Shown piece by piece: positions 8,022 through 54,237 of a DNA stretch of 56,854 nucleotides. Within the stretch, counting starts at the first letter, position 1; every line of letters begins with the position of its first letter. The position numbers and the translations under genes are program-made. The notes below the pieces were generated by a model. It saw only the letters and a list, made by a program, of their open reading frames with translations. It did no database searches and had not been told where the DNA came from. The stretch comes from Perkinsus chesapeaki (taxonomy: Eukaryota > Perkinsozoa > Perkinsida > Perkinsidae): the NCBI GenBank assembly GCA_013115145.1, contig JAAPAO010000184.1, positions 1 through 56,854 on the forward strand, written 5' to 3'.

Positions 8022-9883
8022 GTATGTTCTTTGCAGCTCACATGCTCGGATGTGGATGGTATCTTATTGCTAGATTGGAAGGTTACCCAGAAAACAACAA
8101 CGACTTCTTGCCTCCTCCACCATCGCGAACTAAGGACGAATCTTTAACCGTTCAGTTGCGACTGTTCCCCTTCACATGGCTAATCTTGCTCGCCGTAGGT
8201 ACTTCAAATGCCTGTTCTGGTCAATGTCCCTCATGGCTGGTAGCGAAATACACAAACCCAATACACCAGTTGAGTGAGAAGAAGCACGCAGGGAATACTG
8301 TCTCACGATATACTCAAACTACGTTCTCATTAGTGAGCGCCTAACACTCGAAGAGTTCCCCCTATTTTCACTAACTGTGTGCTCACCGTATAGACATGGT
8401 TCATCAGCACCCAGTGTAGGTATTTATTCATCTTCGGGAGCATTGGTGTTGGTATCAGCCTTTGGGCTACTATGGTCGGAGGACTATCGGCCATGCTCGA
8501 GTCTTCTAACCAAAGAGTAGATACCTTCAACTAGCTATAAGAACAAACCAAACAGGTGGACCAGTGGAGAACAGCCATGGCAGCTGCTCGCTCAATATCG
8601 GAAGAGTTCGACCTGTCAAAGTGTATGGCTCGAAGATTGAGGAGCTCGATGACTGCAACACTGCTGCTTGCTGATACACCGAACGAAAATGCGCAAGGTC
8701 CGGTTGAATTTTGACAAAAGTCAGCATTGTCATCCAATAGGTAGCCTCGCAATGGAGGCTATTGAGGCGTATCTACCAGAGTACCTTAAGAAGGAGCTCG
8801 CAGCAAGTGTACACAAAAAGCTCTTCGATAATGTCTCCATATTCAAAAACACAACTCCAGCATTCCTCGAGGCTCTGGCAAGGAGGCTCAGACCGCAGGT
8901 GTGCCTCGCTGGCGATTGCCTCATACGCGAAGGTGACATCGACAAAGAGATGTAAACAGGTTCCTCAGCACAAACTCAAACCCTTCCTCTTGAGGTACTT
9001 CGTACGCTCCGGCGAGCTACAAGTGATCGCATGGAACTCTGAGAAGGATCAGGAAATCGTTCTGCACACATTGCGTATCTTGCATCCAACGCTCATCTCT
9101 GAATGCCTAACAGGTCCGGGAAGCTTCTGTGGCGAATTAGCACTGGTCGCAGATGTGAAGCGCACAGCGACTGTTCGTGCCACTGTAATGGAACAGTCCG
9201 ATTCTGAAGCCTCCGGCTACTCCGCAGGTTCTGTCATGGTTACTTATGTTGACTGAAGAGGACATGAGGCTTGCACACGAGAGATTTCCGGACGACTTCT
9301 TGATCGTTCAAGATGTTGCCCGACTGCGATTGCAGGAGCACCGTCGAAAGACTGGTACATTACTGAATGCTCTCGTCCACTAGCATAACCTAAAAGTAGG
9401 CTACTCCGAGAAACTGAAGGCCGCAAAGCAGAAGTTGAGGCTCATCTCTGCTGGAGTAAATGGATAGGAGCCATTACCGATTTATGTCTTTGTTGCCTTT
9501 CAGAGAGTTTTGGCGCACAACGCGGCAACTAGGCGATTCCTCGGATTTAGTTCTGAAAGCAGCAGTGTTCCCGAGTCACCAGCGACTCCCCTAACACCGA
9601 CGGTGACACGGTCTAGACCGGTGAGAACTGAAATACGAAGTTCACCCCTCAACAGGGAACCGCTCCAGGAAAGAGAAACCCCCGAAGGCCACATATCGTC
9701 GCCCGATAGTAGCATAACCCAATTAACTCAAGTCACCCGTCGAAGCTACACCGATATTGAGGACCTCATCCTGGACCCTCTGGTGATTGTGAACCACCTG
9801 ACCACTACTGACCTTATGCGTTACATGGCAGGTTTCATTTGCTCGTACGCCTGCCAGCACGGCAAAATAAAATGGCTTACATG
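8022..9883 (+). CDS. Cyclic-nucleotide-gated (CNG/EAG-type) cation channel, 5' end unresolved
   Basis: A plasma-membrane-type tetrameric channel subunit. In order: S5 (MFFAAHMLGCGWYLIARLEG, ~8024), pore helix (YFKCLFWSMSLMAG, ~8200-8250), S6 (FGSIGVGISLWATMVGGLSAM, ~8430-8500), a C-linker (VDQWRTAMAAARSIS) and a cyclic-nucleotide-binding domain. The latter runs from AYLPEYLKKELAASVHKKL through LAGDCLIREGD (~8770-8950) to FVRSGELQVI and GSFCGELALVADVKRTATV (~9000-9180). The phosphate-binding-cassette pattern (GEL ... RTATV) is kept. A Ser/Pro-rich tail ends near 9883. The pore exon lacks GYGD and is closer to the CNG-type filter region, so selectivity is uncertain. Several introns of 40-50 nt. 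N-terminal exons (voltage sensor) are not identified. Confidence 0.75.
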
Positions 9884-10520
9884 AATGCACTTACAATAAC
9901 AATAAATGTCATTGCAGCGTTTATACGAATCTGTTGGGTTAGAATTACAGTTTAGTACTCACGCCACTACAAATGAGTCCGTTAGTAACGAACCATTACC
10001 ACTGCCACTGTTGAGAAAGCATTATTGTTTGCCAAACATAAGCTAGTTCGAGTATGACAATGCTCTTATATAATAACTGTGTGTATCATCGGAACAGTAC
10101 GAAAGGCATATTGGTTCACTATTCCGCACAGCTGAATAGACTCACATTTTAAGCATATCCTGAGCATATGCTAACCTAAATCGAGTTGTGGAGTCTCACC
10201 AGTCCACTATAGGGGAGATAGTGATAAGAGGTTAGTTGCCTGGTACCCCTCGAGTTCTCTCGCTCAAGCAGTAACATGCCTCGCAGCTTTATAACGCGTA
10301 ACTTGACTTAAACTCAACGCGAATTCATACTCAAAGATGATATGGGTATTTGCGACCCCTATAGAAGTTTAGGCCTTGTTGGACTTGTACACTTTTCCGA
10401 CAACGTATCTAGTTTTGGCGTAACGTAACAGTTTTGGTAGTTACATGAGGGTCAGATAAAGAGTATCTCAGTCCACACCAACCTTTGATGATAGATACAA
10501 AAAGGCAGTAAGCCGACAAC
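9884..10520. other. Intergenic, no gene seen
   Basis: AT-leaning sequence with no coherent frame or splice chain. It probably holds the 3' regions of the two convergent flanking genes. Confidence 0.4.
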
Positions 10521-10937
10521 CTAGATTAATAGACCAGGGGAGTGGTGTGTAGTATATACAGCGTTGCCTCCTTCAAGTATGAAGTGCAAAGTGTTGAAAC
10601 CCCTACCATTGCCTTCATGACGAATTTGAGTGAAAGTCAACTCCGAGAAGTCGGGAGCAGTCGGGGCAGAACCACCAGACCATTCGTACACCTCTAGCAT
10701 TTGCGTCGATTCCACTTCAGAAGTCACACGGTATTTACCAGCATAGATCACAGGTAGAGACCAACCTTCTCTGCGGAGAGTAAACTCCATATTGCAGCCA
10801 TTGATCTTCACGGCTAAGATGGTTGGCTCTTTCACCCCGGTTCTGTCAAACGGCTCATAGAAACTTGAGCGGATGCATTTACTGCCCACTCCAAAAGCGG
10901 ACATAATAACAGTTAGAATGGTGACGAGCGAGAGCAT
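10521..10937 (-). CDS. Secreted protein with signal peptide, family unknown
   Basis: One intact 138-codon frame. It starts MLSLVTILTVIMSAFGVGS, a good signal peptide with a cleavage site near residue 18-19. The mature part (~120 aa) is rich in beta-prone segments (PTILAVKINGCNMEFTLRR; GFNTLHFILEGGNAVYTTH) and has only two cysteines, which suggests a small beta-sandwich domain. I do not recognise the family. Absence of introns in an intron-rich region and presence of a signal peptide fit an expanded lineage-specific secretome family. The start is the first Met and directly opens the signal peptide. Confidence 0.65.
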   Translation of the reverse strand: MLSLVTILTVIMSAFGVGSKCIRSSFYEPFDRTGVKEPTILAVKINGCNMEFTLRREGWSLPVIYAGKYRVTSEVESTQMLEVYEWSGGSAPTAPDFSELTFTQIRHEGNGRGFNTLHFILEGGNAVYTTHHSPGLLI

Positions 10938-12610
10938 ATGGGTCAGGTAGACGGCAAAAACTTAGAAAGGATGAGGAGTGATTAAAGAGTCACACTATTG
11001 AACACAGGAGTTAGATACCGGCAGTGTAAGCAACAGCCCTGCCGAGATGAAGCCCATTCTCGGATGCAAGCCCAACAGTCGATAAGAAGGATCAAATCGT
11101 GTATCACTTCAGCGAATCATCTTCCCTTAGGATGGAAGGCTGGAATTCCTCCGGGAACGACGCGACATGTGCAAGGGTATGCGTGCCCATCACCGGTAGC
11201 TGAAAGTTCGGGTTTGAAGGTAGTATCTCGTGCGTGATCAGTCATGGAGATGGGCTTTCATAGATAGCACGGCTGAGAGAAAAGTTAACCTGAAAGTCGT
11301 GAAAGAAATTTTGACCACCAGAAGCTGCTATGCATGCATCTTAGCTTTGGTGCAAGCGCCACTTTGCCTACTGCGAGATTGGGAGAGGCATCGCCTTAGT
11401 TAATCATCATGATCATCGGAATAGTGTTATACGAGTCCGGATACTGATCCAATATGTTGATTCTCTCGCGCTATGGACAACATCGTATGATAGGACAACA
11501 TCTGCCAGGTAACCGACCAAATTGTTGCGGGTAGCTATGCCTGTACGCATGCGTCGGCTGGTGGCCCACCAGCCACCAGTGGTGGGGTGTTAGTAACAAC
11601 GTGTTACCCAGGACTCCTGGACCCAGGATTTGAGTTTCCCAGCTCCTCTTGCCCGTAGCGTGCCTTCCTAAGCGCTTCTGTGGCGTTTTGCGGTTACCCG
11701 CGGCGCCCTATCTAGGCTTCAACGCTCTCCTATTTGCTTCCCCTCGCGGTTTCGCCATTTGATATGTACGACGTACATTGCACGTTAATTGCGACGCCGC
11801 TGGCATACCAAACTTGTGAATATATCGAGGCTCTAGCCGAACCTCTCCATAATAGCTCCTATGTGGAAGTGTGCGCTTTTTGACTTGGTGGTTTCTAGGG
11901 CACATAATGCTCAGATAGTCTTATGTTTTGCGACACGCTCTACGATCTGATGCGTGCCAGGGGAAACCCACTTGTGGCCCAAAAACGGTTAATGGAATAC
12001 AACTTGACACGTACCGATGTGAGGAGGTATATAGAGGGTTTAACCAATACTCAACTCAACGACAACAATCGGCTTGTCCATTCGGATAATAGGCTACTAC
12101 TCATGCGTTCGCTAAATAGCTGAAGAAACGCCGAAGCCTCACCTAAATACACATTTTACTGTACAACCGCTTCAAAGAGGAGCATATCAACCGGCTGCTG
12201 CCCAAATGTCGACCATGCATATGAAGGTATATGATGCTGTAACAGAGGCGAGTAGACACTGGTTCACACTCATCGTAAAGTGCAGCTTCTATACCAATTA
12301 TAATGGTCGCATCGGACATCTCACCAGAAGACCTGACACAGTTTAACTTATCATCACATTTCCACACATACATGACGAAATAAGATTATGCACTCTGGAA
12401 TGGGAAGACTGGTCCACCATTAGTGTACTCCGCAGGCTGATGCCACGGCACCTACAAGTCCGAAAACACTACGCTAAATACGCTTTATCGAACGTACCAT
12501 CTGATGCCTTAATCGGCCGTCATGAAGGAGGTGAATATCGAAACCACGCGAGCATCTCTTCACCTTCGTCACGCCAAAACTAAGTGCTGACAAAAAAACA
12601 GACATACGAG
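10938..12610. other. Mostly non-coding stretch with a hairpin cluster
   Basis: No recognised gene. One plus-strand frame at 11923-12123 (66 codons, starting MFCDTLYDLMRARGN) has plausible composition but no relatives I know. The hairpin cluster at 11556-11620 is listed separately. Confidence 0.35.
11556..11620. repeat. Four adjacent perfect short inverted repeats
   Basis: Seen directly: GGCTGGTGG-c-CCACCAGCC (11556-11574), CCACC-agt-GGTGG (11573-11585), GTAACA-acg-TGTTAC (11593-11607), CCAGGA-c-TCCTGG (11608-11620). Four hairpins with loops of 1-3 nt lie within 65 bp. Function unknown. Similar clusters occur near 19927, 20463 and 43716. Confidence 0.8.
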
Positions 12611-22137: not shown

Positions 22138-25100
22138 TTATAGGCGCAATATCTCTCTCAATACTCTCTCGTCTTCATCAATACCATCAAAAATGTCATC
22201 AAAATACATATGGTCTTCGTCAGGATTAACAAGTTCTTCTTCATCATCACCTTCTTCAGGAAGTAGATAACCATAGGAGTCAATTACCTTCTGGGGATCT
22301 TCATAGCGCTTCAGGTTAAAGATAGATTCAAGATACTTAAGAGGTGTTCCATCCATCTTGCTGAGCTTGTAGACGGTGCCAGAACTGTTTACCTTCATCA
22401 CCTTGTACGGGCCAATCCATACTCCTTGCTGCTTGAGGTTACCGTGCTTGTAGCGTAACACCATATCACCAATCTTGAAGGACACGGTCGGGCCACGCTT
22501 TAGAGGGGCTTTTGCCATCCGATTACGGATCCTATCACTCCTCTCCAGCCAATAGTCAAAGTAGTCAACCATACTCTCGCACCTTCTAGAACTGACGTCT
22601 TGGCATATTTCAGTCAAGTCATCCAACAGTTTGTCCTTCTCTAACTCCATTAAACCAGGCAACCATTCGGATAACCGGCGACGTCCTTCTTGATCTTCGG
22701 AGGTGCATCCTAGTCCAGTTGGGTACCGGGGTTTCCTGCAAAAAAATAATTCATGAGGAGTAAGGCCTCCCATCTCTTGCAAGGGCAGTCGATTCATCAC
22801 CGATACCGAACTAGCTACCACTTCTTCAATAGTTACCTCTTGCTCCTTGGTCTCAGCGTCCATCAATCTCGATCGGATCTGTCGCAGCAAAATACCATGG
22901 AATCTCTCAAACAGTCCACCATAGTGTTGACAGTCACGAGGAAGAGTGGCGTAGGCGATGTTGTTGTTGTCCAGAAACCTTAGATAGTGGCTCGAATGGA
23001 AGGTAGACCCTGGATCAAAAATGACGGCGAATGGAGGACCCATGAGCGCAAATAACTTCTGCGTGGCGGCCTCCACCACTTCAGTACGGGTAGATAACAT
23101 CACTTCATAGATAGTTTGATAAGAACTTGGACACATCAGAGTTAGGACCCACTTCTTCCGACCATGGGTAGCATTAGACGAGGTCTCGAGAAAGGGGCCG
23201 GCGAAGTCCATACACCACACCTGGCCCGCATCGAACACAAGTCCACTGGGCCTCACCACTCCAAACGCTCGTCGTACACATCCTCGACGCTTTGTCCTCT
23301 GGCATGTTGAACAGGTATTCTCAATTTGGCGTACTAGGCGGCGAAGTTGAGGGGTATAATAATGCTGGGAGTAGACCGAGATGATCTTGCTTGGATCCGG
23401 GTGTCCCCAGGAGTCATGTAACTCCCAGATGAGCTTGATCACATCGTTCGACATTGGGACAACCGGAACTTGATGGCTACGCCGCTTCTCATTAACCACC
23501 GAAGTCACACCATGATAGTAGAGGATCTCACCCTCCATATGATATAGCCTTAACGATGCTGGTCGGTCAGCTTCAGGTGTGGTGTTGATGGTAGCAATCT
23601 TAGCGACGGTCTTGTGGTCAGCACTCTGCAACTCTAATATCTTCTCCACAGGGAAGTGGTCTTCTAAGTTGAGGGCCATGATGTCATCAACGTCGCCCGA
23701 AGCTCCAATGTTGGTACTTTCATCATCAGAGGCGTTGTTCTCACCGGGGGTCTCAAAGGAGAAGTCGTTCCGGATGGCTAGGTCAACTTCATCTTTCAGC
23801 TGCTCTAGGTCAATGGTGGGTGGTAGAGCTCCAGAATCAAGAGGCCTAGTGGCGATATCTGCCGGGTTAACAGCACCGGGTAGATGGAGTACTTTCACAG
23901 GGCGGCCTCCTTGCTGGGCAATTTCTCGTAGGGACTTCAGGGAGCCTCTCAGTTGCCGGTACTCGAGGGCCGAGATGGCTTTGATCTTCTTGTTCTTGTT
24001 AAGTCTTCTTAGTCTGTAGATAATCAGTTCGGAGTCTACAAATACCTTAAGGGTGATCTTGCGGTCGGCGTTGTCATGCTCCTTGATCATCTTCACGTAG
24101 TCAGCTACCATGCCTAATCCAGTGCAGTATGATAGGCTCTCCTTTTTAGGGATGGTCCAGCAGGCCTCCACCTTAGTCCACAGGTGGGTACTTCCTCGGA
24201 CTCTAGTGTAGTCACCATCATACAGGAGCTGGCAGCTTGCTTCTCCGGAGGCGTCGGTGAACAGATACAGTATTTCAGGTCGGGTCGTTCTGGGGTTCGC
24301 AGTCCTCTCTGGAGTAACCTCAATAAGAGCACGAGCAAGGCGGATTAAATTGGTGGCTACCTTCGGGTCGATGGCCATATCCCAGTCAGTAGAGGTCTCG
24401 AAGGCACGTCTAGCCAATAATCGCAAGCAGGACACCAGTTCCACTCCCAATCCGAGAGGGTCATAAAAGGCCATTACCAAGCCGAAAGCTGCCTTACGAC
24501 TCATGTTCTCAGCGGTCAGGTCTAGTGGTTCAGCCTTCGGAATGTACTTGACGGACAGCTTGTCGCGTCTCCAAAGGTATCCCAAGTAGGTAGTATCAGG
24601 ACGTTCCCAGGAACGATACTTCTTAATCTTGTTAGAGGGGAATCCATGACCTTCTAAGGCTTCATCAATCTCTTCAGAGGTAGCTTCCGCTTCCAATGAA
24701 TTCTTGCCCTTCGCCAAGGAGTCGTCCACATATACTGCCACCCTGTCGATCAGTCTAGTAGTAAGGGTAGTACTCTCAGGACCAGGGGGTGATGGAGCAG
24801 TGTTCTTGTCCAAGTCGGGGACCTCATCAGGGTTGGGGCTCGCAGTTGAGAGGGAGGTAGTCAACGAGCTCAGTGGATCGCTGATCTCGACGTCGATGTT
24901 ACTCTCTTGCTTCTTAGATCTCTGTTCACAGTAGTATAAGTAGGCATCCAACAGCTGACCTACCACCGGGTCTAGCCGCTTGGCCTCCTCGGGGTCGATC
25001 CTCCCTTTTCGGACGTCATACATGATCAGTGCAGCTCGGACGGCTTGGGTCAATCCACTAGGGGCAAAGTTGGCACCAAATATCATAGCCATCCACTGGT

Positions 25101-28100
25101 CAAAGTCGAGCTCATCAAGTTCATTCACCGTACACATCCCCAGGAAACGCTGGTCTTCTTCTCTGATCTCTATCCTGTGGAAGGCTTTCGAGAGGTCTCC
25201 CAGTACCACTTGGTCAGCAAGTCGGAAACAAGTCAAGTTACCGATCAGCGTCTGGCAGTAGAGGTCGTCGTTGGGAGGGTCGCCCTCGTAGCAGTAGTGG
25301 TTCAGCTGGGCGCTTGCGTCTAGTACCAGGCGGACTCGAGTACTTACCGCTCCAGGGCGCACCACTGGCATACTGGGGATAATGTGCTTCAGGGCACCGC
25401 GGTCGACCGGCTTGGTGAAACCTAGGTCTCGTAGCTCCTGGATAACCTTAAGGTACTCTTGACGCACTTCAGGGGTGAGCCTTCGGTTGACAGTGCGAGC
25501 GCGCCTCACAGCAGAGTCACTGCCACGATCGTCGGGTCGCTTGGAGCCTTTCCAAGGGATAGATAGCATGAACCTTCCACTGGACGATCGGGGAGTTGGT
25601 GGCTTGAGCTCCCAAGAAAAGTGACCGGGGTGACTATCATCATCATGGCCTTGATAAGGGCGAAGTACTCTGTTTACTTTCTGCTGCTGAGTCAACCCTT
25701 TGCTCTCTCCACCCTCAGGCGGATCAGTGTCAGGAGGGCATTCACTCTCAGCTAGCATAATCAGAATTTCAGCGGGCAACTCGGGGGGTTTGGTCTCGAG
25801 CTCAGCAGTGCCTTGCTCGGTGGGGGGGCGGTCAGTACCGATATAGCACAGCTCAGATAGTTGGCATTCCTCACGTGGTCGATCACAAAGCAGGGTAGTT
25901 CTGGTTGGCGGACCGCAGATGCTCTGAGTAACCTTCTGAGCTTCGTCCCCAACTAGCAGCACGTTGCGGTCGAGGAACCAGAGGGCCCCGAGGTCCTTCA
26001 ATAAATTAGTGGATAGTATCAGATCATGGGCCATCTCAGAGTCGACCACCACGAAGTCCTCAAGGGCCTCGGTACCATCTTCAAAGCGAACGGTCAGGGC
26101 GCAGGCTTTGCCGACAACCTCAGGGGCTCCACAGTTAGCAGTGCGAAGCCTTATCATAGTGTTCTCGAGGGTGCCGTGCTCGATAGTATCAAGGACGCTC
26201 TTGTGCATAACGGAGATCATAGCCCCACTATCTAGCAGGGCTGTCTTAGGTTGGCTGTCGTTGATGCTGATGTTGATCACTTGTGAAAGGCCACGATATG
26301 GAATAAGGCTGATAGCCTGGATGTCCTTGATACCGGGGACCTTACACTTGCATGCTAGGCTCGAGTGATGAAGTTTTCCACACCTACCGCACTTGGCACC
26401 GTAGGAGTCGTACTCACGAGGGCAGAAGTAAGAGCGATCATGGCATAACCCACAGAACACACACCGTTGATCCTCGAACTCTGCCGCATTCTCACACACC
26501 TCCGCAAGATGGGATACTCCCTCCCGGTCAAGACATCGACCACACCGGGCTCTTAAGATCTTCTTGTTGTTGTCGCTGTTGAGGATGGTTTGGTCATTCC
26601 TGATCTTCTTTTTAAAGTTGCCCTTAGATGGTCTAATAGTCACCGGAGGGGTAGGCTTGGCACCAGATGTAGAGACGATGGGGTCGGCGTCACATAGAAC
26701 TCCACAGACGTCCTTAGTCTTACAACTGGGATCCCAATGCACTTGGGCCCACGACTTGGCGGCCTTAACCACCTCTTGGTAGGTCATACCTTGGGTTCCT
26801 GGCAGCTTATAACCCCTCTCATCCAAGAACTTCTGACAAGCTGAAGGTAGAGCAGCATGAAGTCTACATTTCATCTCAGAGTCGGTCAGCTGGTTACCAG
26901 GCATCCGTCTGGTTCTCGCCACTTCTCTTGCAGTAGACTCAAACTCGCTCCAGAACGTTAGGAACTTAGTGCCCTTTCTTAACCACATTTGACTCCACCG
27001 AGTCTCTAAGGTATCAGCATCGGTGCCCGAGTAGATCTCGTCCAAGAACTGCCATAGAGAGTCAAGTCTCATCTTCCAATAGGAGCTATTAGTCTCATAG
27101 GCATCCTTGCCGTACTTGTCGAGGTCGTTCAAGTCTCGGTCGGCTTCATAGGTGTCTAATAGCCTCTGGATGTCCTTTGTCAAATTATGGCGTACAGTGA
27201 AGTACTTGGTGCAGTAATCACTCCAGACAAAGTCGGGCGAAGTTTGTAGCTTGTTCTTAAACTCACTGAGGGGAACCTCGTCATCTTCGCCAGACCACTG
27301 GTCGCTCAGAATGTAGTACTGTCGGCTCACTTGATAGTACACATAGCTGACATCTTTAGGGCCTTTCGGCCGGCTGCTAGAGTACCACCAATCCTTGCTC
27401 CAGTCGTTCCACCCATTCCAATCATTACTGCGGCTAGCATTATTAGGCTGGGCTTGCTCATATCGGTCAGACTGTTGGTAGGCCTCTAGTGTATTGTCGG
27501 AGGGTCGAGCGCAATCGGTAGGGTTCGGTGTAGATCTGAGTGGGGTCGTCATACTGGAGGACTCTTCACGTCTCTGGAGCATGGGCTTATGGATTACCGA
27601 TTCCTCAACCGTCCTCAGCGGGAGCACAACTTCGGTGCGGGGGTCGTAGTAGGCATAACTCACTTGTCCTCTGGGGTCATTCGCGGGGTTCACAACAGCG
27701 ACCTTAGAGGAGTCGTCAGCGGGGATGTTATCAGCATGAATCACTTGTCCTCTGGGGTCATTCGCGGGGTTCATAACAGCGACCTTAGAGGACTTGTCAG
27801 CGGGGTTGTTATCAGCATAAATCACTTGTCCTCGGGGGTCGTTCACGGGGTTCATAACCGCGACCTTAGAGGACTTGTCAGCGGGGTTTTGGTGAGACGT
27901 GGATGACCCACCACCAGCGGTCTCTAAGGGGTCATCACTGACCAAAGGGGGCTTGTGGTCATCGGTCTGCTCGGTGCCTTTCGCCTGCTTAGTGGGCGAA
28001 CTCGGCTCGGATTCACTATCAGAGCTGGTACCAGAAGGGTCGTTCTCCGATAATGGAGTCATAAATTCCTTCTGGGTACCAGAGTCAGTCTTCTTGAAAT

Positions 28101-28152
28101 CATCAGATCCCTTGCTATCATCGTCCTGAGCAACTCTGCGTCTTGGGGCCAT
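22138..28152 (-). CDS. Gag-Pol polyprotein of BEL/Pao-like retrotransposon
   Basis: 2004 codons without interruption. Order (approximate residues): Ser/Asp-rich gag N-terminus with three 27-aa tandem repeats (~85-165). Capsid-like helices follow (~250-480), then a Cys-rich zone ending in a CX2CX4HX4C knuckle (CGRCGKLHHSSLAC, ~590). Aspartic protease is TALLDSGAMISVM (~635). Reverse transcriptase has VRLVLDASAQLN (~940) and VAVYVDDSLAKG (~1138). The Pao-type segment FYDPLGLGVELVSCLRLL is next, then RNase H with LYLFTDASGEAS (~1297) and HLPGAVNPADIATRPL. Integrase has a zinc finger (H...H, CSTCQ) and the triad MDFAGP, IFDPGSTF, GGLFERFHG with 35 residues between second D and E. The C-terminus has an SH3-like GPYKVMKV segment. 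The order and the FDPLGL signature place it in BEL/Pao rather than Ty3 or Copia. Confidence 0.95.
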   Translation of the reverse strand: MAPRRRVAQDDDSKGSDDFKKTDSGTQKEFMTPLSENDPSGTSSDSESEPSSPTKQAKGTEQTDDHKPPLVSDDPLETAGGGSSTSHQNPADKSSKVAVMNPVNDPRGQVIYADNNPADKSSKVAVMNPANDPRGQVIHADNIPADDSSKVAVVNPANDPRGQVSYAYYDPRTEVVLPLRTVEESVIHKPMLQRREESSSMTTPLRSTPNPTDCARPSDNTLEAYQQSDRYEQAQPNNASRSNDWNGWNDWSKDWWYSSSRPKGPKDVSYVYYQVSRQYYILSDQWSGEDDEVPLSEFKNKLQTSPDFVWSDYCTKYFTVRHNLTKDIQRLLDTYEADRDLNDLDKYGKDAYETNSSYWKMRLDSLWQFLDEIYSGTDADTLETRWSQMWLRKGTKFLTFWSEFESTAREVARTRRMPGNQLTDSEMKCRLHAALPSACQKFLDERGYKLPGTQGMTYQEVVKAAKSWAQVHWDPSCKTKDVCGVLCDADPIVSTSGAKPTPPVTIRPSKGNFKKKIRNDQTILNSDNNKKILRARCGRCLDREGVSHLAEVCENAAEFEDQRCVFCGLCHDRSYFCPREYDSYGAKCGRCGKLHHSSLACKCKVPGIKDIQAISLIPYRGLSQVINISINDSQPKTALLDSGAMISVMHKSVLDTIEHGTLENTMIRLRTANCGAPEVVGKACALTVRFEDGTEALEDFVVVDSEMAHDLILSTNLLKDLGALWFLDRNVLLVGDEAQKVTQSICGPPTRTTLLCDRPREECQLSELCYIGTDRPPTEQGTAELETKPPELPAEILIMLAESECPPDTDPPEGGESKGLTQQQKVNRVLRPYQGHDDDSHPGHFSWELKPPTPRSSSGRFMLSIPWKGSKRPDDRGSDSAVRRARTVNRRLTPEVRQEYLKVIQELRDLGFTKPVDRGALKHIIPSMPVVRPGAVSTRVRLVLDASAQLNHYCYEGDPPNDDLYCQTLIGNLTCFRLADQVVLGDLSKAFHRIEIREEDQRFLGMCTVNELDELDFDQWMAMIFGANFAPSGLTQAVRAALIMYDVRKGRIDPEEAKRLDPVVGQLLDAYLYYCEQRSKKQESNIDVEISDPLSSLTTSLSTASPNPDEVPDLDKNTAPSPPGPESTTLTTRLIDRVAVYVDDSLAKGKNSLEAEATSEEIDEALEGHGFPSNKIKKYRSWERPDTTYLGYLWRRDKLSVKYIPKAEPLDLTAENMSRKAAFGLVMAFYDPLGLGVELVSCLRLLARRAFETSTDWDMAIDPKVATNLIRLARALIEVTPERTANPRTTRPEILYLFTDASGEASCQLLYDGDYTRVRGSTHLWTKVEACWTIPKKESLSYCTGLGMVADYVKMIKEHDNADRKITLKVFVDSELIIYRLRRLNKNKKIKAISALEYRQLRGSLKSLREIAQQGGRPVKVLHLPGAVNPADIATRPLDSGALPPTIDLEQLKDEVDLAIRNDFSFETPGENNASDDESTNIGASGDVDDIMALNLEDHFPVEKILELQSADHKTVAKIATINTTPEADRPASLRLYHMEGEILYYHGVTSVVNEKRRSHQVPVVPMSNDVIKLIWELHDSWGHPDPSKIISVYSQHYYTPQLRRLVRQIENTCSTCQRTKRRGCVRRAFGVVRPSGLVFDAGQVWCMDFAGPFLETSSNATHGRKKWVLTLMCPSSYQTIYEVMLSTRTEVVEAATQKLFALMGPPFAVIFDPGSTFHSSHYLRFLDNNNIAYATLPRDCQHYGGLFERFHGILLRQIRSRLMDAETKEQEVTIEEVVASSVSVMNRLPLQEMGGLTPHELFFCRKPRYPTGLGCTSEDQEGRRRLSEWLPGLMELEKDKLLDDLTEICQDVSSRRCESMVDYFDYWLERSDRIRNRMAKAPLKRGPTVSFKIGDMVLRYKHGNLKQQGVWIGPYKVMKVNSSGTVYKLSKMDGTPLKYLESIFNLKRYEDPQKVIDSYGYLLPEEGDDEEELVNPDEDHMYFDDIFDGIDEDERVLREILRL
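27661..27900 (-). repeat. Three 81-bp tandem repeats inside gag
   Basis: The block beginning cacttgtcctctggggtc recurs at about 27661, 27742 and 27823 (period 81 bp). It encodes the 27-aa unit SSKVAVMNPANDPRGQV plus linker. Copies differ by a few bases, so the expansion predates the last transposition. Confidence 0.85.
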
Positions 28153-39156: not shown

Positions 39157-39684
39157 CTAAGTATTTATCAAAATAATAATAACCTTCCTCTTCAACATGA
39201 CCATCAAGTGTCGCCTCCTAGTTGACCTAGGATATGCTGCCGAAGCCCTAGCAATCGGCTGTATGTTAATAATACCAACACTTTCTCTAGAACCATGCAG
39301 TAGGGAAGTACGGTCCCCATACGTAGCGGTGGACACCAGTAGGCCTAACAAAAACCTCTTAATTAAAGGTAAAGATGAGGCTTACATGGTAGCGCCTGTA
39401 TAGAGACTGTCCCACACGAATACACCAGCCCAGAGGGCCATAAGGCAATAGAAGCCTAAGCCGTTCTTCTCTGTACCTTCCTTAGTGTAATCGAAAGGAT
39501 GACAGGTTTTGGGGAATGGTTCCTGAATGAGGTAGATTCGAGGATTCGCATGGTTGAAGAATCTAAGGTTAATGCGTACATCATCCTTGTAGAGTGGATT
39601 CTCTGTCTTATAGCCTCTAGCAGCCACCATACGATATGCTTGTATAGGCCTTACCATACGGTTGGCAGTCGAAGTTGCCAACAT
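39157..39684 (-). CDS. Nuclear-encoded mitochondrial inner-membrane protein, family unknown
   Basis: Three exons, 39684-39386, 39344-39294, 39247-39157; 441 nt, 146 aa. The N-terminus (MLATSTANRMVRPIQAYRMV, then AARGYKTE) is Arg/Ser/Ala-rich without acidic residues, a typical mitochondrial presequence. It is followed by DDVRINLRFFNHANPRIYL and a single TM helix (NGLGFYCLMALWAGVFVWDS). The short C-terminus includes YVWGPYFPTAW. Size and layout resemble small accessory subunits of respiratory complexes, many of which are lineage-specific in alveolates; no subunit name is claimed. It is divergent from the transporter gene, 180 bp apart. Confidence 0.65.
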
Positions 39685-39864
39685 ACGGCGAGCAAGTGTT
39701 GGAAGCACCATGTGGATAATAATAACAAGTGCGGATATCGACAACACCACAATTCTGCTAACTACGTAGAGTTCGAAAGTTTCGCGCGCGCCCATCTGAT
39801 CGATCGTCTGCGCACTTGCTACGACACCAGACGTCACGTAATTTTAGTCTTGGTATACGGCCCG
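39685..39864. promoter_or_regulatory. Shared divergent promoter region
   Basis: The 180 bp between the start codons of the mitochondrial protein (minus) and the amino-acid transporter (plus) must hold both promoters and leaders. No TATA-like box stands out. Confidence 0.4.
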
Positions 39865-42027
39865 ATGACTATAACCTCACCATGCACCACTACACCATTA
39901 TTGTCATCTAAGCTTCTTCCAGATAACCCCTTTCCTAAACCCCCTCCTGGCTTCTTTGATGCTGGCTCTGTCTTCTGCTGCAGCACACTGTTATTCACCG
40001 CCTCGGTTGGCAGTGGTGTATTAGCATTACCGTCAGCAGCCAAACAAGCAGGCCTTGGTCTCGGTATCCTATTTCTGGTATGCGCAGGGCTCATATCCGC
40101 TACTAGCAACTGGATACTATCGAATGCAGTAACGGTATCTGGTCAAAGGACATATGGTTCAGTGCTGGCCTGGGCTATATCATATATCAAGACTGGTGGT
40201 ACACGGCAAGGCTTCCCACTACAGAGGCTTCATGCCTTTGATGCTTTCATGGTTCTTAACCAGGCTGCCAGTATCGTCACTTACCTAATATTTCTGGGTG
40301 ATTTTCTGCCCTCCGTATTCCTTACATGGACCGGTATCCCAGTCAACCGCACTCTGGTCCTTGTCATCATCTCCTACGTAGTGGTTCTCCCATTCTCTAT
40401 CAGCAGCGAGATATCATCCCTAAGAGCCGTCGGGTCCTTCAGCATGTGGGTAATGTTTGCTACCGCTATCCTAGCCGTTTGCAAAACGCCTTGGGGAGCT
40501 CTAGGGGGACAGCATCACCTAGAGACCAACTCAGCAGCTTTGGAGGGAGTCACATGGCAGCATGGTAAGCATCCGTAGCTACAGCATAGTGTGCTCAGTA
40601 TAAGAATATTTCCCCTTATATAGAGGCAATAGCGAACTTGGTTTTTTGATGCCTTTGTGTAGTAATATTGGTCCCCTCAGTTCCACATAGGCTTTCCACG
40701 GTAAATACCCTCCTCAGTATTACTGAATAGGGAAAACCTGCTTGTGAACCTTTTCTAAGGTCTCTGTTAACTTATCTGCTCGATTACATGCCAATAGGAA
40801 GCTTAAGACATATAGCATAGATGTGAACCCTCCACAGCGGAACTCATATGTGATATAATGCCGTCAAAGTGATGCCATCGCTGCCTCATGCCTTACCTTT
40901 TGAAATGTAATTCCCATAATTTCCCATTCGCCTCGTTTCTCTAACTTCCGAGCTTTCTCCTTCCCTCAGCCATGCAAGCCCTATCCCTCGGCACCTTCGC
41001 CTTTATGAATCAAGTCAATGCTGTATGTATCACAGCAGAGCTACATAAGCCGACCCCAGCACGCCAAGGCATTGTGTGCATTTCGAGCTCCGCATGTCTC
41101 TTCCTCTGCTACGCCACTCTGATGGCCTGCGTGTAGGCTATCGGCGGCGTCGAATGCCTCCTCGGCACTTGAGCATCTCAGGTACCTCACATTCGGTCAG
41201 GCAACCACGTCAAATTTCCTCCAGAACTACCCGGTTGATGATTCTGCGGTGAACGCCTGCCGAGTGGTGAGGATCTATATCATTGACAGATAGTTAGTGT
41301 CCGATTCAGGCAGTGTCGCTGATGCTGATCTTCGCATGCCCACTCAACCTTTTTCCTGTGACAAGCTCATTTTTCCATGCGATCGAACGGTGTGATCTCG
41401 AGAGCAACCCCCGAGTGCGGTCGGCTTTCAACCTTGTCGTCCTCACGGTCTGCCTCGTAGCGGCCATTTGGGTAGGCACCACCCGCTTGCTCAGCTCTGC
41501 GCACACCTTCCTACCAGGTGCCTGATGTAGGCTCGTTCATTGGCTTTGTGTCGGCCTATATGTCAACGCCATTGATGATGACTCTGCCTGCTTTTATCTA
41601 CATAGTATGCTGTCGGGTAGAGGATGCTACCCTGTCCAAGGAACAGATCCCTATTAGCGCATCCAAGGCCTTGCTGAGAAGGTAAGCATATCTCGCAGAA
41701 ATGCTCATGGTCGATGTATGTGTGGTGGCGGGTCAACGAAATAACGGGCGACTCTCTGGTGATCGTGCAACACTTAGACTGGTTTACTGTAACAGTTTAA
41801 TAAAGTTTAGTGCAACACTACAGTTTAGAGCGCTATGTTCGGGTATGAAAATCGAGCAGGTTCACCCGCTGGGGAGCCCTGACGGAGTCCTTCCTACTCC
41901 TTTCTGCAGCACAGGTTTGTTATATTTCAGGTCATGTCGCCTTGCCATACCAGCGATTTTACTCGCAGTGAGCGTGCTGCTGTGGACGGCTGCGACAGTG
42001 AACCTCTTCGGTGGCAAGAAGAGCTAG
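39865..42027 (+). CDS. Amino acid transporter, AAAP/SLC38-type
   Basis: Six exons: 39865-40564, 40970-41132, 41182-41266, 41310-41471, 41518-41681, 41931-42027; 1371 nt, 456 aa, about 11 TM segments. TM1 has the family signature TASVGSGVLALPSAAKQAG, with the unwound-helix Gly pattern used for substrate and ion binding. Later helices include FMVLNQAASIVTYLIFLGDF, LVLVIISYVVVLPFSI and FGQATTSNFLQNY. It should move neutral or cationic amino acids across the plasma or vacuolar membrane; substrate cannot be told from sequence. Intron 1 (405 nt) and intron 5 (249 nt) are unusually long here. The start at 39865 gives a short Pro-rich cytosolic N-terminus (PFPKPPPGFFD). Confidence 0.88.
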
Positions 42028-48318: not shown

Positions 48319-49568
48319 TTACCCATTTTCATAACCAATACCAACAAACAGCAGGATCATCAGGAGCGCTGTCACGTGAACGAACCTGAGTGGTCTCGGG
48401 TGGATTGAGAGTCGAGCGGTGGTCGTACATGCCAGACTTGAACTTTGGGTTCGGTGGTATCTCCGTGCCGAATATCCTGTCCCACAGTCTCAGAATAGGC
48501 GCATAGTTCTTCTGACTTCTCTCAGAGTGATGGAGATCATGAATCTAAGCAAGGTGCTCCGAGGAACAACTGTGACATCACCCTCCTACCGGAGCTCCGC
48601 CGCCCAACTCGAACGGCCACAAATTGAAGGGGGACCACCTGCCATGGGGCAGCAGTTCATTACCCACAAGATGATGATGCTCCTACCAGGTGTTATGCCC
48701 GCTGTGCTGCTCCAAAAGCCAGGCTACCCAGATAAAGGCGAAAATGCAGAGTGTCAACCAATGGTGCCTCATCACTAGGGGGTACCAGTAGTACACCATC
48801 AAGCTGCAAGTCTACCATCCGGAGCTCCAAGGGATGCACCTTTGACTGACTTACGTGTTCGAAGGGGTGGATGAGAGCGCTGGTCCAGCTGTAGGGTTCG
48901 TAAAACTGGTGATGCACACTGTGGATGTTACGGTAGAGCCAGGGGATGTGAAACATACGGTGATACCAATACGTGCAGGAATCTCCGACGATCTGATCAT
49001 GAGCCGAGCTGATACCACGGTTAGTCGCTGCAGCTTACGAACGCTAGAGTGATGTCCCTGAAGGCTTCCCAGAGCGTCGGTGCCTCGCTCGGCAAATCAA
49101 TGTGGAGCGGAGTCATGTAGACTCCCAACGATATGAACAAGGTAAAACCGATAGACTGAAATGACAGGCGAAACCTCGGGCACCGTGAATTGGAAGGTGC
49201 ATCACCTGAACAACCGTGTGGAAGAGAAGTGTGCCGATGCTGGGCCATCTCGAAGGCTGAGGAAGCGGAGAGCTGCTACAGCTAGTCGGTGAGTTGGCCT
49301 TGGTTACTTGTATCTTGGTTTCCATGAACTGCGGGATATCGTAAAACAATGTGTAATACGTACAGATGGCTATGTAGGCCACTGTCGCCACAACCTGAAG
49401 TTGTTGTGACTAGGGAGGTCATCTCCTATTGACACCTACCCCAGGGAACAGAGCATTCGATACCAGACCGATGCCTCTCCACTGTTCAAGCTCCAATAGC
49501 TGATCCCACAGCGGCTGCAAGACCAGCGTAATATCCGACTGTAAGGCGAGGGAAGACGTGTCGGCCAT
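48319..49568 (-). CDS. Fatty acid / sterol hydroxylase superfamily protein, paralog A
   Basis: ER-type di-iron membrane oxygenase (FA_hydroxylase, ERG3/ERG25/ceramide-hydroxylase class). Nine exons: 49568-49440, 49394-49308, 49256-49206, 49155-49039, 48992-48855, 48811-48687, 48638-48590, 48544-48444, 48385-48319; 864 nt, 287 aa. His clusters: YHRMFH, HSVHHQFYEPYSWTSALIHP with HPFEH, EQHSGHNTWW, and IHDLHHSERSQKNYAP with WDRIFGT. Several TM helices and a C-terminal TM (VHVTALLMILLFVGIG). Exon structure and sequence match paralog B at 52463-54237. The exact substrate is not determinable. Confidence 0.88.
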
Positions 49569-49675
49569 GTTAAACGGACAAAAACAGACGACGACCACTG
49601 GCCCACGGCTGGTGAATGTTGGAATAACTCATACAGTAGGTCTTGTTCGAACATCTTAATGTTAGACACACATCT

Positions 49676-51100
49676 CTACGTAATAACAGGTACATGTCGC
49701 TTCTCTTTCCGACGTCCTTTGGTCCATGATGTGTCCATTCGATCAACCCTCCATCTGCCATCGATCAACGGCGCCGAAGGTTGCCGTCGAATAGCTATGG
49801 TTCCATCACCCGCAACTTCACCAGAATAAATAAAATGATCATCGTACCCCATAGCGCTCGGTGGGGCACGCCGTCTCCCTCGCTCAACTGGTACGGAGTT
49901 TACCGTACCCACAGTTACGAAGTGGTCCTCCCACCCCTCCTGCAGCGCATCGCCATGCCACTTGTTAGGGGAATGTCGAGGCCGTGGATTTGCCGCAGCC
50001 CCGATGTTCACCCAGTTGTCAGCCCAACCTTCTTGAACTGGTGAGCCGAAAGTCTTATGACCAGGGACGTCCTCGCGGTTCGGCGTCCCAAGTGTAGCAA
50101 AGTGATCGACTTGCATCGTGCGACTCGGTCGTGCATGTCGCTTCTCTTTCTCAACGAACGCTGGCTCGTCCGATACGCCAAGACCGAGCATGTGGTCATG
50201 CCAGCCTTCCTGTGTGGCAGAGGCATGCAGCTTCCCCCTGACCTTCGCCTCGATTCTCGGCTCCACTGCTCCCTGGAAGTGGTCATGCCATCCTTCTTGC
50301 GTCGCTCCATGATGCAGTCTGCTCACAACTCGATCTGTGTCTCTGACCTCGGCAGTTCCTATATTTTCAAAGTGGTCGTGATAGCCTTCAATTGTCGGAG
50401 AGTGATGCAATCTTCCCTCAACTTTTGGTGCAACATCAACCGTGGAGATGTCCTGGAAATGGTCATGCCATCCCTCCTGTGTCGCTGACTTATGCAGCAA
50501 GCCAGTTGGCCTCGGTCCGGTTCCCACCGTGCCTTGGTCGGTAAATTGGTCATGCCACCCTTCCCTTGTCGCCGAGGCGTGCAACATTCCGTGCGACCTG
50601 GACCCAGCTGCCACCGCCCCTTGGTGGGCAAAATGATCGCCGAGCACCTCAGGATGGTGAACCTTGCCCCGAGGGGCCTCTGCCGTGACTGCAAATGTAT
50701 CACTTGCGGTCTTTCCGATATGATCGTGCCACCCCATGACCGTCGGTCGTGCCTTGAGTTTACCCCTGGTGCGCTCGTCAACCTCAGATATCCCCATCGT
50801 GAGCATATGCCCTGCTGTCATATCAACAGCTGCGTTGTTGCCCTTCATTTTCCCCCGTGGCTTTTCCCGCGGGGATGCACTCATTCCCTCAGCCAGCATC
50901 CGACTTTCCATCCACGCCGGCAAAGCAATGTTACGGCCCCCAACTTTGGGGCATGCGTGCTCCAGGAGACTTCCCGCTTTCTTTGGGGCCAACTGGTTTC
51001 GAGACACTTCCTTGAATTCGTTCACTGTCTCGCTTGTCGGAAGCGTTTCCGTGTCCGAAGTTACCGTAACGAGCCTCGGGGGTCTCCAGAGATGAGGATG
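49676..51100 (-). CDS. Novel GWHDHF tandem-repeat protein
   Basis: One open frame of about 470 codons, the 3' exon of a gene; it begins after an acceptor (gatttag) at 51101, so an upstream exon with the start codon is expected. From residue ~95 of the Met-equivalent frame there are eleven repeats spaced 27-32 residues with consensus G-(K/R)-L-H-x-S-A-T-Q-E-G-W-H-D-H-F-x-x-x-G-T. Examples: MGWHDHI, REGWHDQFTDQGTV, TQEGWHDHFQDIS, IEGYHDHFENIGTA, TQEGWHDHMLGLG, QEGWADNWVNIG, QEGWEDHFVTVG, MGYDDHF. No signal peptide or TM. Between motifs are basic Pro/Gly linkers. I do not know this repeat. Regular short motifs with aromatic-Gly cores in basic disordered linkers resemble proteins that line microtubules or axonemes, which is only an analogy. 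It sits between two paralogous hydroxylases. Confidence 0.85.
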   Translation of the reverse strand, partial: HPHLWRPPRLVTVTSDTETLPTSETVNEFKEVSRNQLAPKKAGSLLEHACPKVGGRNIALPAWMESRMLAEGMSASPREKPRGKMKGNNAAVDMTAGHMLTMGISEVDERTRGKLKARPTVMGWHDHIGKTASDTFAVTAEAPRGKVHHPEVLGDHFAHQGAVAAGSRSHGMLHASATREGWHDQFTDQGTVGTGPRPTGLLHKSATQEGWHDHFQDISTVDVAPKVEGRLHHSPTIEGYHDHFENIGTAEVRDTDRVVSRLHHGATQEGWHDHFQGAVEPRIEAKVRGKLHASATQEGWHDHMLGLGVSDEPAFVEKEKRHARPSRTMQVDHFATLGTPNREDVPGHKTFGSPVQEGWADNWVNIGAAANPRPRHSPNKWHGDALQEGWEDHFVTVGTVNSVPVERGRRRAPPSAMGYDDHFIYSGEVAGDGTIAIRRQPSAPLIDGRWRVDRMDTSWTKGRRKEKRHVPVIT

Positions 51101-51131
51101 CTAAATCGAAGCACGAAGAATGCGTAAAAGC

Positions 51132-51591
51132 TCACAACTCGTGATAGTTTCGAAACAGCTGGTGGATTCGAAAAGTTGGTAACGCATAAAAACAGAAATT
51201 AAAGAACATATTGTTGCGGATGTAAACCTGTGAGATCGGCCTCCATTTCTCAAGCACCAAAGTCTCGCACGCTGTCCCACTGTAAAGATTACACATGCCA
51301 CAAGATTCCCAGTAACCCTCACATTCGCCTGTGGGCACAACCTGGACGGCATAGCCCAACGAGCTGTTGCGTCGTATACAGTTGCCGGATATCCAAAGTC
51401 CGCCCGGCTTCGCTTGCATAGATAGGCTTGAAGATCGATGATCCATCTGAGCAGGACATCGCTCCGGTAACAGCATCGCTTAGCTGTTCCATTTCTCTAT
51501 ACATGTTGATGAGCGCAGCAGTACGTGTAGACGATACGGTACATATATTCCAGCACAGGCGGGGCGGAAGAAGTATCAGCACACCAAACAA
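51132..51591 (-). CDS. Possible Cys-rich upstream exons
   Basis: Minus-strand pieces: a hydrophobic start (FGVLILLPPRLCWNICTV), INMYREMEQLSDAVTGAMSC, then AVQVVPTGECEGYWESCGMC plus NLYSGTACETL. They look like coding sequence for a small extracellular Cys-rich domain. They may be a separate gene or the 5' part of the GWHDHF gene; splicing was not resolved. Confidence 0.35.
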
Positions 51592-51727: not shown

Positions 51728-52140
51728 TTACTTTATGATTTCATCTGGCCTCATAGGTATCCTCGGACACTCCACTCGCGGCTCCACCATAGCTTTCAGA
51801 TCCTTCGCTCGCTGTTGCAGCCTTGCCGTAGTTAACAGTTCGAGCTGCTCAAACCTGTAGGAGTCGGATACAAGACGATAAGGCCGTAGCATCTGCCGGC
51901 CTCTCTCAGTAGAGCCCAGAATTCACTCGCCAGGACGACTGAAGACTCTTCGACGGACGGAAGAATCAACGGAAAATTTCGTGGAATTCCCACGGAAGCT
52001 TTTGTCCTCAGCGGCATGACTTCACTCAAGCACTGCGATTTGAAGGCAACAAGAGCAAGACTCACGTCCACAGCTTCACTAAGCGCCCATTCCATATCAT
52101 TTCTGTTTCCACTCGAGTGCTCGCAGACGTTCCCTGGCAC
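51728..52140 (-). CDS. Unidentified small gene
   Basis: A helical C-terminal part, RPYRLVSDSYRFEQLELLTT followed by ARLQQRAKDLKAMVEP and RIPMRPDEIIK, ends in TAA at 51728-51730. An upstream frame (LALVAFKSQCLSEVMPLRTK) probably supplies earlier exons. The length (~110-130 aa) and basic helix content resemble a small organellar or ribosome-associated protein, but no family is recognised. Confidence 0.4.
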
Positions 52141-52462
52141 TCAGAAACTGACGCATTCGATGGAGCCATTTCTGATGGAAAAACGTCTGCCAGGAAAAAA
52201 TAGCGCCCCGTTTTGGTCAAGTTAACGAACACCAGACAGAGGAGGAGAAATCAAAACCGTGAGAATTGTATAATGGTCGAGGGGCCACACGGCCGCGAAC
52301 TCAAAATAAGCTTATTCACGTTTAATCCTTGTCGACGAAAGGCTCAACGAGGACTGTAAGGCGACACATACAACGACACCCACCCCTGCGGCGACAGAAA
52401 CCCACTTTGCCATATTAGCGGTGATGTGCCTGAGTTATATTGTTAATTGACACTACAACCAC

Positions 52463-54237
52463 TTACCCCTCCTCAAAAGCTATACCAGCCCCCAGCATGA
52501 TCAAGAACAGCAGCGTTACGTGGATGTACCTTATCACGACGAAACGTGGAAAACGATGACATGAACTGATGCTGCTGCTATTAAACTATGCAGCAAACAC
52601 ATCAGGTAAAGCAGGGATTTGCTTACTTTCCACAGCGGGAGTGCTCACTGGGCACATCCGTCCGGAAGAGTAGGTCCCATGCGTTGAAGATAAAGGCGAA
52701 GTTCTTCCTAGTGTACTTGGAATGATGCAGATCATGAACCTAAAGAGCCCAGAGGTGTTGGTGCCGACCAAGCCATGCAGCACTCGGATGCCGTAGACGA
52801 AGGTTGAACTTACATCAATCATATACGGAAAGAGCGTGATACATAATACAGTATTAACTATCATGAATACAAGTTTAATAACGATATTAGGTCACAATGG
52901 TGAGTGACAATTGGAAGGCAAACGAGCAAGTGAACGATAGAAGAAGGGAAATTCCACGCTGCAGAACAGCCGAGGATGTGAGTTACATAAACAGAGCGAA
53001 TGAGACTGGCCTTACCGCAGCACCTCCACCGAGATTAAATGGTAACAGATTATAGGGGGCCCACCTGAAATCATATCGAGTTGGCGGGAGGAGCGGTATG
53101 AAGTCACTAGCCTCACCAGACATCGTGACCGCTATGTTCCTCAATGAGATTAAGCGTCCATAAAAATGTGAATACATTTACAGTCAACCAATGACACTTG
53201 AACAGCCAGGGGTACCAAATGTTGCATACCACTACGCAAATCTAAAACGGCAAATGAACCAAGCACTCTTTAAGATCCAGAAGCTACACTTAACAGCTGC
53301 TGCCGTTATAGCCAGGCGCGCCCTTGGTGATGCAATGCGGTGTTACGTCGCCCAAAGTGAAAAGACTCGTTTGTGAATGACAACCCGGTAGGAAGTGACT
53401 TCCTATTTGCCCAACGCCAATAATAATAAATGTTCAACGATGGAGCTTTTAGCAAGCTACACTCAAAACGTGGCAACAAATACGAAATCGTTCGATCGGT
53501 TTCCATAATTTGGGGCGCGTGACAAAATCCGAGCTACAGACCGTTCGAAGCTATTACATCTTCCATCGGGTGCAAGATGCCCCCTGCCCAACTGTAAACA
53601 GCTTTATAACCATGATGAATGCTATGCACATTACGCAATAAGAACGGTACTGCATGCATCCACCTATGATACCAATAGATACAGAAATCACCAACGATCT
53701 GACAAAGAAGGCTACAGCCAGTCGACTCCGCCGCCGCCAGCCACGCCTTACCAAGCAGCCCAACAGCTCCTTTGAAAACTGCAGGAGTGATGGGGCCTCT
53801 GCCGGCAGATCCACGAAAACCTCGTAGTAGTATCGTAGGAGCCCATTGAGAACAATGTAGACGAGCATCTGATACCGGATATAAGCATATTGCGACCGAG
53901 ATGCGGACCTGTGGAATGGAGCTCACTATCAAGTCTCGGACAGTTGGCCACTTGAACGGCTAAAAAGATCGTCGATAAATGACCGATCTCCGATGCAGGC
54001 TCACCTGTATCTTAGAGCGCATGTAGTGGGGGATGTCATAGAATATAGTGAAGTATAGGCAGACGAGCAAAAATGCTACACTGGCCCACACCTGCGCAAG
54101 TTCGATCCCGGCATCCGTCGTTTTGCATTTACTGATGGGAATGTGATATGGGATACTATATGGAGGCCCTTCCACTCGTCGAAGCCCCGTATAGTATCCC
54201 AAACACCCTGCAGTACAACCGGCGATGGAGGATCCAT
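52463..54237 (-). CDS. Fatty acid / sterol hydroxylase superfamily protein, paralog B
   Basis: Paralog of 48319-49568 with the same exon order. It starts MDPPSPVVLQGVWDTIRGFD at 54237, then VWASVAFLLVCLYFTIFYDI and WPTVRDLIVSSIPQ. Next is MLVYIVLNGLLRYYYEVFVD and LPAEAPSLLQFSKELLG. The His clusters are YHRWMH, HSIHHGYKAVYSWAGGILHP, EEHSGHDVWW and VHDLHHSKYTRKNF. It ends YIHVTLLFLIMLGAGIAFEE and TAA at 52463-52465. The shared His motifs bind the di-iron centre. The intron after HPMED is long (from 53557 to about 53290) and carries the tggggcgcgtgac motif at 53511-53523. Another intron carries gagcggtatga at 53091-53101. Exons past 53290 are less exact. Confidence 0.85.

Follow-up and report, generated by a model that had tools for sequence, protein, structure and literature searches.

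In the window, by which we mean the whole stretch of 56,854 nucleotides analyzed here from Perkinsus chesapeaki, an alveolate of the Perkinsea in a genus of marine shellfish parasites (contig JAAPAO010000184.1, which is contig C95 of a genome of 35.4 Mb in 884 contigs), the minus-strand open frame 51100-49676 contains a motif with the core EGW-x-DHF in 11 copies, located at 49805-50776. Sequence comparisons indicate that the repeat family is real and old, and it is found so far only in Perkinsus and in the protein P0003. We propose, with a probability of roughly one in three, that the encoded protein is an extended multivalent scaffold, each repeat of which would dock on one unit of a periodic binding partner, for which microtubules are favoured. 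In the following, the window protein is designated P0001. A protein database search yielded two orthologue-like relatives, namely P0002 from P. olseni (550 residues, E-value (E) 2.3e-131) and P0003 (420 residues, E 1.0e-104). The paralogue P0004 (564 residues) is encoded in the same genome as P0001.

The presence of an 11-repeat protein, as put forward in the original prediction, was confirmed by autocorrelation: self-identity of P0001 at lag 29 amounts to 0.193, while the best lag (lags 5-119) in 1000 shuffles did not exceed 0.122. Column counts over the 11 copies give the repeat consensus G-[RK]-L-H-x-S-[AP]-T-Q-E-G-W-H-D-H-F-x3-G-T. The spacings from Asp to Asp are, in order, 29, 29, 29, 29, 31, 29, 30, 29, 31 and 29 residues, i.e. 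seven of the ten intervals equal 29, one equals 30 and two equal 31. The predicted regularity thereby held, but the range of 27-32 residues given for it was too wide, as the intervals of the window protein stay within 29-31. A "nearly invariant" core, also predicted, applies to the Asp (11 of 11 copies) and is a fair description for Gly(-3), for the aromatic residue at -2 (7 Trp, 2 Tyr) and for His(+1), which are present in nine copies each, but not for position -1, where His or Asp is found in seven (6 His, 1 Asp). Phe(+2) occurs in eight copies. The linkers had been regarded as basic, which is not confirmed by the composition of the repeat block: its 324 residues include 35 Lys/Arg vs 44 Asp/Glu with an isoelectric point of 6.4, and position -12 is the sole regularly basic column (8/11 copies). 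The array and its repeats are as follows, the array being defined by spacing, autocorrelation, matrix scan and column counts, and the single repeats by spacing, matrix scan and alignment.

49805..50776, minus strand: array of 11 repeats with a period of 29 residues
50690..50776, minus strand: repeat 1, without clear counterpart in P0002 and P0003
50603..50689, minus strand: repeat 2, divergent VLGDHF core, without clear counterpart in P0002 and P0003
50516..50602, minus strand: repeat 3, absent from P0002 and P0003
50429..50515, minus strand: repeat 4, weakly conserved (10/22 aligned residues in P0002)
50342..50428, minus strand: repeat 5, 23/29 residues identical in P0002
50249..50335, minus strand: repeat 6, 21/29 residues identical in P0002
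50162..50248, minus strand: repeat 7, 22/29 residues identical in P0002
50072..50158, minus strand: repeat 8, divergent MQVDHF core
49985..50071, minus strand: repeat 9
49892..49978, minus strand: repeat 10
49805..49891, minus strand: repeat 11, best kept between species (25/29 residues in P0002, 24/29 in P0003)

At the DNA level, no tandem repeat was detected in 49500-51200 by Tandem Repeats Finder at a minimum score of 30. When identical residues at equivalent positions of two copies are compared (Met and Trp excluded), their codons differ in 257 of the 435 pairs, and identity of the cores between copies is 0.577, 0.535 and 0.368 at the first, second and third codon position, respectively, i.e. 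lowest at the third. The repeat exon thus looks coding. Since the repetition is invisible in the DNA, the codons have diverged and third positions are the least conserved, the array is old and has been maintained at the protein level.

In a predicted minus-strand gene of four exons, whose joined product comprises 591 residues, the repeats are encoded by the final exon. The three predicted GT-AG introns measure 211, 285 and 222 bases, and position 51100 is the first base following an AG acceptor. The three upstream exons, which go beyond the original prediction, encode a predicted folded N-terminal domain.

52066..52169, minus strand: exon 1 (proposed), ending in ...VKLWT, based on a GT donor and similarity to the P0002 N-terminus; its putative start codon was chosen such that the product resembles the P. 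olseni protein in length
51732..51854, minus strand: exon 2, first half of the N-terminal domain, based on GT-AG borders and a 45% match to the paralogue on contig C117
51323..51446, minus strand: exon 3, second half of the N-terminal domain, based on GT-AG borders and a 50% match to the C117 paralogue
49676..51100, minus strand: exon 4 with linker, 11 repeats, C-terminal segment and stop codon, based on the open frame and the acceptor before 51100
49679..49804, minus strand: C-terminal segment, conserved by alignment (30/42 residues in P0002, 27/42 in P0003)

According to the alignment, the N-terminal domain encoded by exons 1-3 is common to the P. olseni protein (55%) and to the second gene of the same genome (43%), and an intron splits it at the same place in the window gene and in the C117 gene. 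The C-terminal segment is possibly one further, decayed repeat.

Absence of the repeat from any other species, together with lack of a transcript, had been named beforehand as a finding that would speak against the prediction; relatives do exist in P. olseni (P0002) and in the source of P0003. A matrix built from the 11 window copies recovered 20 copies at a score of at least 6 in the relatives: seven in P0002 (best score 55.0), five in P0003 (46.8) and eight in P0004 (45.0). The maximum over 1500 shuffled relatives was 8.1, and three of the 20 copies (7.3, 7.4 and 7.7) fall below it. The paralogue P0004 is encoded on contig C117 at 9829-10965 on the minus strand plus upstream exons and has the same N-terminal domain; the C117 reading frame is contained letter for letter, from the 7th of 379 residues on, in the P. 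chesapeaki protein FOL47_003376. Twelve repeats were anchored by eye in P0004, vs eight recovered by the matrix. Anchoring by eye, weaker copies included, gave 39 copies in all four proteins, in which Asp is present in 38, His(+1) in 33, Trp/Tyr in 30, Gly(-3) in 28, His(-10) in 22 and His(-1) in 15; the one missing Asp reflects a P0004 anchor placed two residues off. Four decayed copies (P0002 near 237 and 406, P0003 near 134 and P0004 near 538) were left out of these counts.

The degree of conservation varies along the array. Repeats 5-11 are common to P0001, P0002 and P0003; repeats 5, 6, 7 and 11 share 21-25 of 29 residues with P0002, and repeats 8-10 share 15-18. For repeat 3, no counterpart exists in either of these proteins, and the alignment is poor for repeats 1, 2 and 4, suggesting that repeats 1-4 are window-specific or fast-changing. 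P0002 has one clean extra 29-residue unit. From residue 185 of P0001 onward, core positions of the repeats are identical to P0002 in 43/55 cases vs 85/133 for the other repeat positions, and to P0003 in 37/51 vs 65/127 cases. Lag 29 also gives the highest self-identity in P0002 and P0003, and barely so in P0004 (0.110 at lag 29 vs 0.109 at lag 32).

When the genome of P. chesapeaki was searched with single-protein queries, of which only the best candidates were considered, repeat queries returned the window gene and the C117 gene, and N-domain queries returned the same two genes plus a match on contig C664 (E 0.119). The latter lies in a stretch that looks repetitive in all frames. The protein database searches scored only the roughly 8000 candidates that have most words in common with the query. 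P0004 was missing from the search that gave P0002 and P0003, and a search with the N-terminal domain (46 candidates) returned P0002 alone, again missing P0004, which bears this domain. Failure to retrieve a known domain bearer means that these searches are too insensitive to show that relatives are absent from dinoflagellates, the sister group of Perkinsea (PMC5029502), or from apicomplexans.

The original statement that no described family with this repeat is known is supported by the searches made: no Pfam family exceeded its cut-off for P0001-P0004, and no solved chain was matched at E<=10. At E<=10, Pfam gave sub-threshold matches only for P0001 and its paralogue, and none for P0002 and P0003; likewise, the first 117 residues of the window model matched no Pfam family at E<=10, and P0002 matched none either. 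The SAXO1-2 Pfam family did not appear for P0001-P0004 at E<=10, a range in which the filters of HMMER discard most matches above about 0.1, and the SAXO profile PF05217 found no match in the P. chesapeaki genome, a result that is uninformative as 14 controls were silent too. Pfam presumably includes a model of the alveolin repeat domain, and no such family was listed at E<=10 for P0001-P0004. In the open-licence literature, no description of the repeat family was found and the motif strings occurred in 0 papers.

Structure prediction assigns disorder to the repeat exon, with a mean predicted local distance difference test score (pLDDT) of 36. In the predicted model of the P. olseni protein, pLDDT is about 30 for the greater part of residues 189-550, while blocks of 73-94 are found within residues 21-100, by which the N-terminal domain is predicted to be folded in this relative. 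The predicted domain weakly resembles the Rho N-terminal fold and the SAP helix-extended-helix; unlike Rho N-terminal and SAP domains, it matches no Pfam profile and is followed by a repeat array in the window family. Foldseek listed 12 matches, none of them at E<=0.001. One weak match of the N-domain profile to the PDB, a putative TBPIP family protein (E 0.22), was set aside.

The steady pitch together with the short conserved core and the predicted disorder suggests an extended chain that carries one docking motif per unit of its partner. In the mechanism we propose, the small, folded N-terminal domain with its weak Rho/SAP likeness and the conserved C-terminal segment would flank 11 docking motifs, which would be displayed on a mostly disordered, extended chain. 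Each EGW-x-DHF core would engage one unit of a partner that itself repeats regularly, with the 29 residues serving as a ruler. Less certainly, this partner may be the microtubule lattice, perhaps that of stable pellicular, apical or flagellar microtubules. Along a protofilament, the chain would then place about one repeat on each 8-nm tubulin dimer, as for SPM1 and FAP363, using a motif of its own. A span of 8.2 nm is obtained arithmetically for 29 residues when about 7-8 of them are helical and the remainder extended; for comparison, the helix formed by the Mn unit of known lumen binders has about 7 residues (PMC10973386).

This layout is reminiscent of SPM1 from Toxoplasma and other apicomplexans, a filamentous microtubule inner protein, which likewise combines conserved N- and C-terminal parts with a variable number of repeats of about 30 residues having a short core each. 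According to PMC8144581 and PMC12905489, SPM1 has conserved ends and 5-13 repeats, of 32 residues each in Toxoplasma, sits in the microtubule interior with a short helix for every tubulin dimer, and belongs, as does the window protein, to the alveolate lineage. Unlike the Toxoplasma repeats, which are 32 residues long and carry the Mn motif, those of the window protein comprise 29 residues with EGW-x-DHF and lack this motif; moreover, the window family has a Rho/SAP-like N-terminal domain, for which the available parts of the two sources mention no equivalent in SPM1. The comparison was drawn from the published description rather than from the SPM1 sequence, and the common layout is analogous and does not prove kinship. 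Regularly spaced short tandem motifs on an extended chain are also a feature of the Mn-repeat proteins SAXO, MAP6 and FAP363. Small lattice-binding motifs made of aromatic residues plus glycine are represented by the PYG, GFG, SNYG and NWE modules of ciliary inner proteins, as described in PMC10973386. At the level of patterns, as distinct from module profiles, neither PYG, GFG and NW-x-E strings nor the published SNYG and NWE patterns occur in the four proteins.

A number of observations weigh against docking on a periodic lattice. The minimal syntax of the Mn unit, [TS]-[TS]-x4-[YF] (PMC10973386), has 0 occurrences in P0001, P0002, P0003 and P0004, which speaks against direct kinship with the Mn-motif proteins of the SPM1/SAXO/MAP6/FAP363 type; the window protein is not classed with these, but may act in a similar way to SPM1. 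The relaxed pattern [ST]x5[YFW] occurs eight times in the window protein vs a shuffle mean of 4.9, is in register in 5/11 repeats, and its count was reached in 24-53 of 500 shuffles across the four proteins. The pitch is looser in the relatives: 29-33 residues plus one interval of 58 across an unanchored copy in P0002, 25-33 in P0003, and 28-32 plus one of 43 in P0004. Repeats 1-4 (50429-50776) have no clear counterparts in P0002 and P0003, and the gaps around them measure 17, 18 and 36 residues, none a multiple of 29. Poor conservation of repeats 1-4 and the looser pitch in relatives lower the lattice reading slightly and raise that of a loose scaffold. The 8-nm arithmetic is weak and non-discriminating, as repeats of at least 24 residues can be made to span this distance, and the disorder prediction rests on four sequences. 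No solved PDB chain was matched at E<=10, either by a single protein or by two whole-protein profiles. Finally, SAP/Rho-like domains are commoner in nucleic-acid binders. Taken together, the lattice role suggested originally is favoured by the 29-residue period, the predicted disorder and the SPM1-like layout, and is disfavoured by the absent Mn motif and the variable pitch of the relatives.

Nearly as likely is a multivalent linear-motif scaffold that binds a soluble or membrane-skeleton partner, e.g. in the pellicle, through avidity and without any lattice, its pitch being inherited from duplication. Predicted disorder, a short conserved core between looser linkers, relatives with spacings of 25-33 residues plus single ones of 43 and 58, and the indistinct conservation of repeats 1-4, where length changes do not come in units of 29, all agree with this explanation. 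It accounts for nearly everything but the steady window pitch, which stays at 29-31 residues despite copies that have diverged beyond recognition in the DNA and changed many codons; unconstrained linkers should have gained or lost residues more often.

An association with chromatin or RNA, in which the N-terminal domain would sit on nucleic acid and the G-R-K/R-H half of the repeats would add contacts, is suggested by the Rho/SAP-like resemblance, but not by the repeats, which are acidic to neutral; we regard it as unlikely. Metal binding by the His/Asp pairs, the other role originally proposed, has become quite improbable. The near-constant Asp, His(+1) and, in part, His(-10) could be cited in its favour, but at least three conserved ligands per repeat were not found, only the Asp (38/39) and His(+1) (33/39) being widely kept. 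His(-1) is present in only 3/12 copies of the paralogue P0004, adjacent Asp and His residues presumably rarely chelate one ion, and the conserved Gly and Trp/Tyr would be left unexplained. A chance or decaying open frame without product, which might be suspected from the lack of a listed P. chesapeaki protein, is extremely improbable in view of the P0002 match (E 2.3e-131), the excess of third-position differences and the shared intron position in the N-terminal domain of two genes.

Within the length range searched, the database lists no P. chesapeaki protein for the window gene, which seems to be unannotated unless its model lies outside this range. P0002 is named "Cholesterol 25-hydroxylase-like", an identity unsupported by its sequence, in which Pfam finds no domain. 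The repeat gene is flanked on either side by fatty-acid hydroxylase (PF04116) coding pieces in the same orientation, and the enzyme name of the P. olseni protein may stem from the same neighbourhood there, judging from the window neighbours.

53324-53710, minus strand: fatty-acid hydroxylase coding piece (Pfam PF04116)
48843-48992, minus strand: fatty-acid hydroxylase coding piece (Pfam PF04116)
48464-48553, minus strand: fatty-acid hydroxylase coding piece (Pfam PF04116)

Elsewhere in the window, 22138-28152 (minus strand) is a BEL/Pao-like retrotransposon frame of 2004 residues, in which Pao retrotransposon peptidase (A17) and integrase zinc-binding domains exceed their cut-offs and aspartyl proteases remain below. 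Open frames at 4620-5114 and 39499-40578, both on the plus strand, match the N-terminus of ALG11 mannosyltransferase and a transmembrane amino-acid transporter, respectively.

In its most specific form, the lattice reading would make EGW-x-DHF a perkinsid ruler of 29 residues without the Mn motif, present in at least two proteins and binding one repeat per tubulin dimer, which would take the role of the unrelated SPM1; we consider this version rather doubtful. Should docking on a lattice hold true, microtubule rulers based on a second, unrelated motif would have arisen in alveolates, and EGW-x-DHF would provide a handle to find such proteins in perkinsids. Should it prove false, the repeats would still define a Perkinsus protein family for which no description was found.
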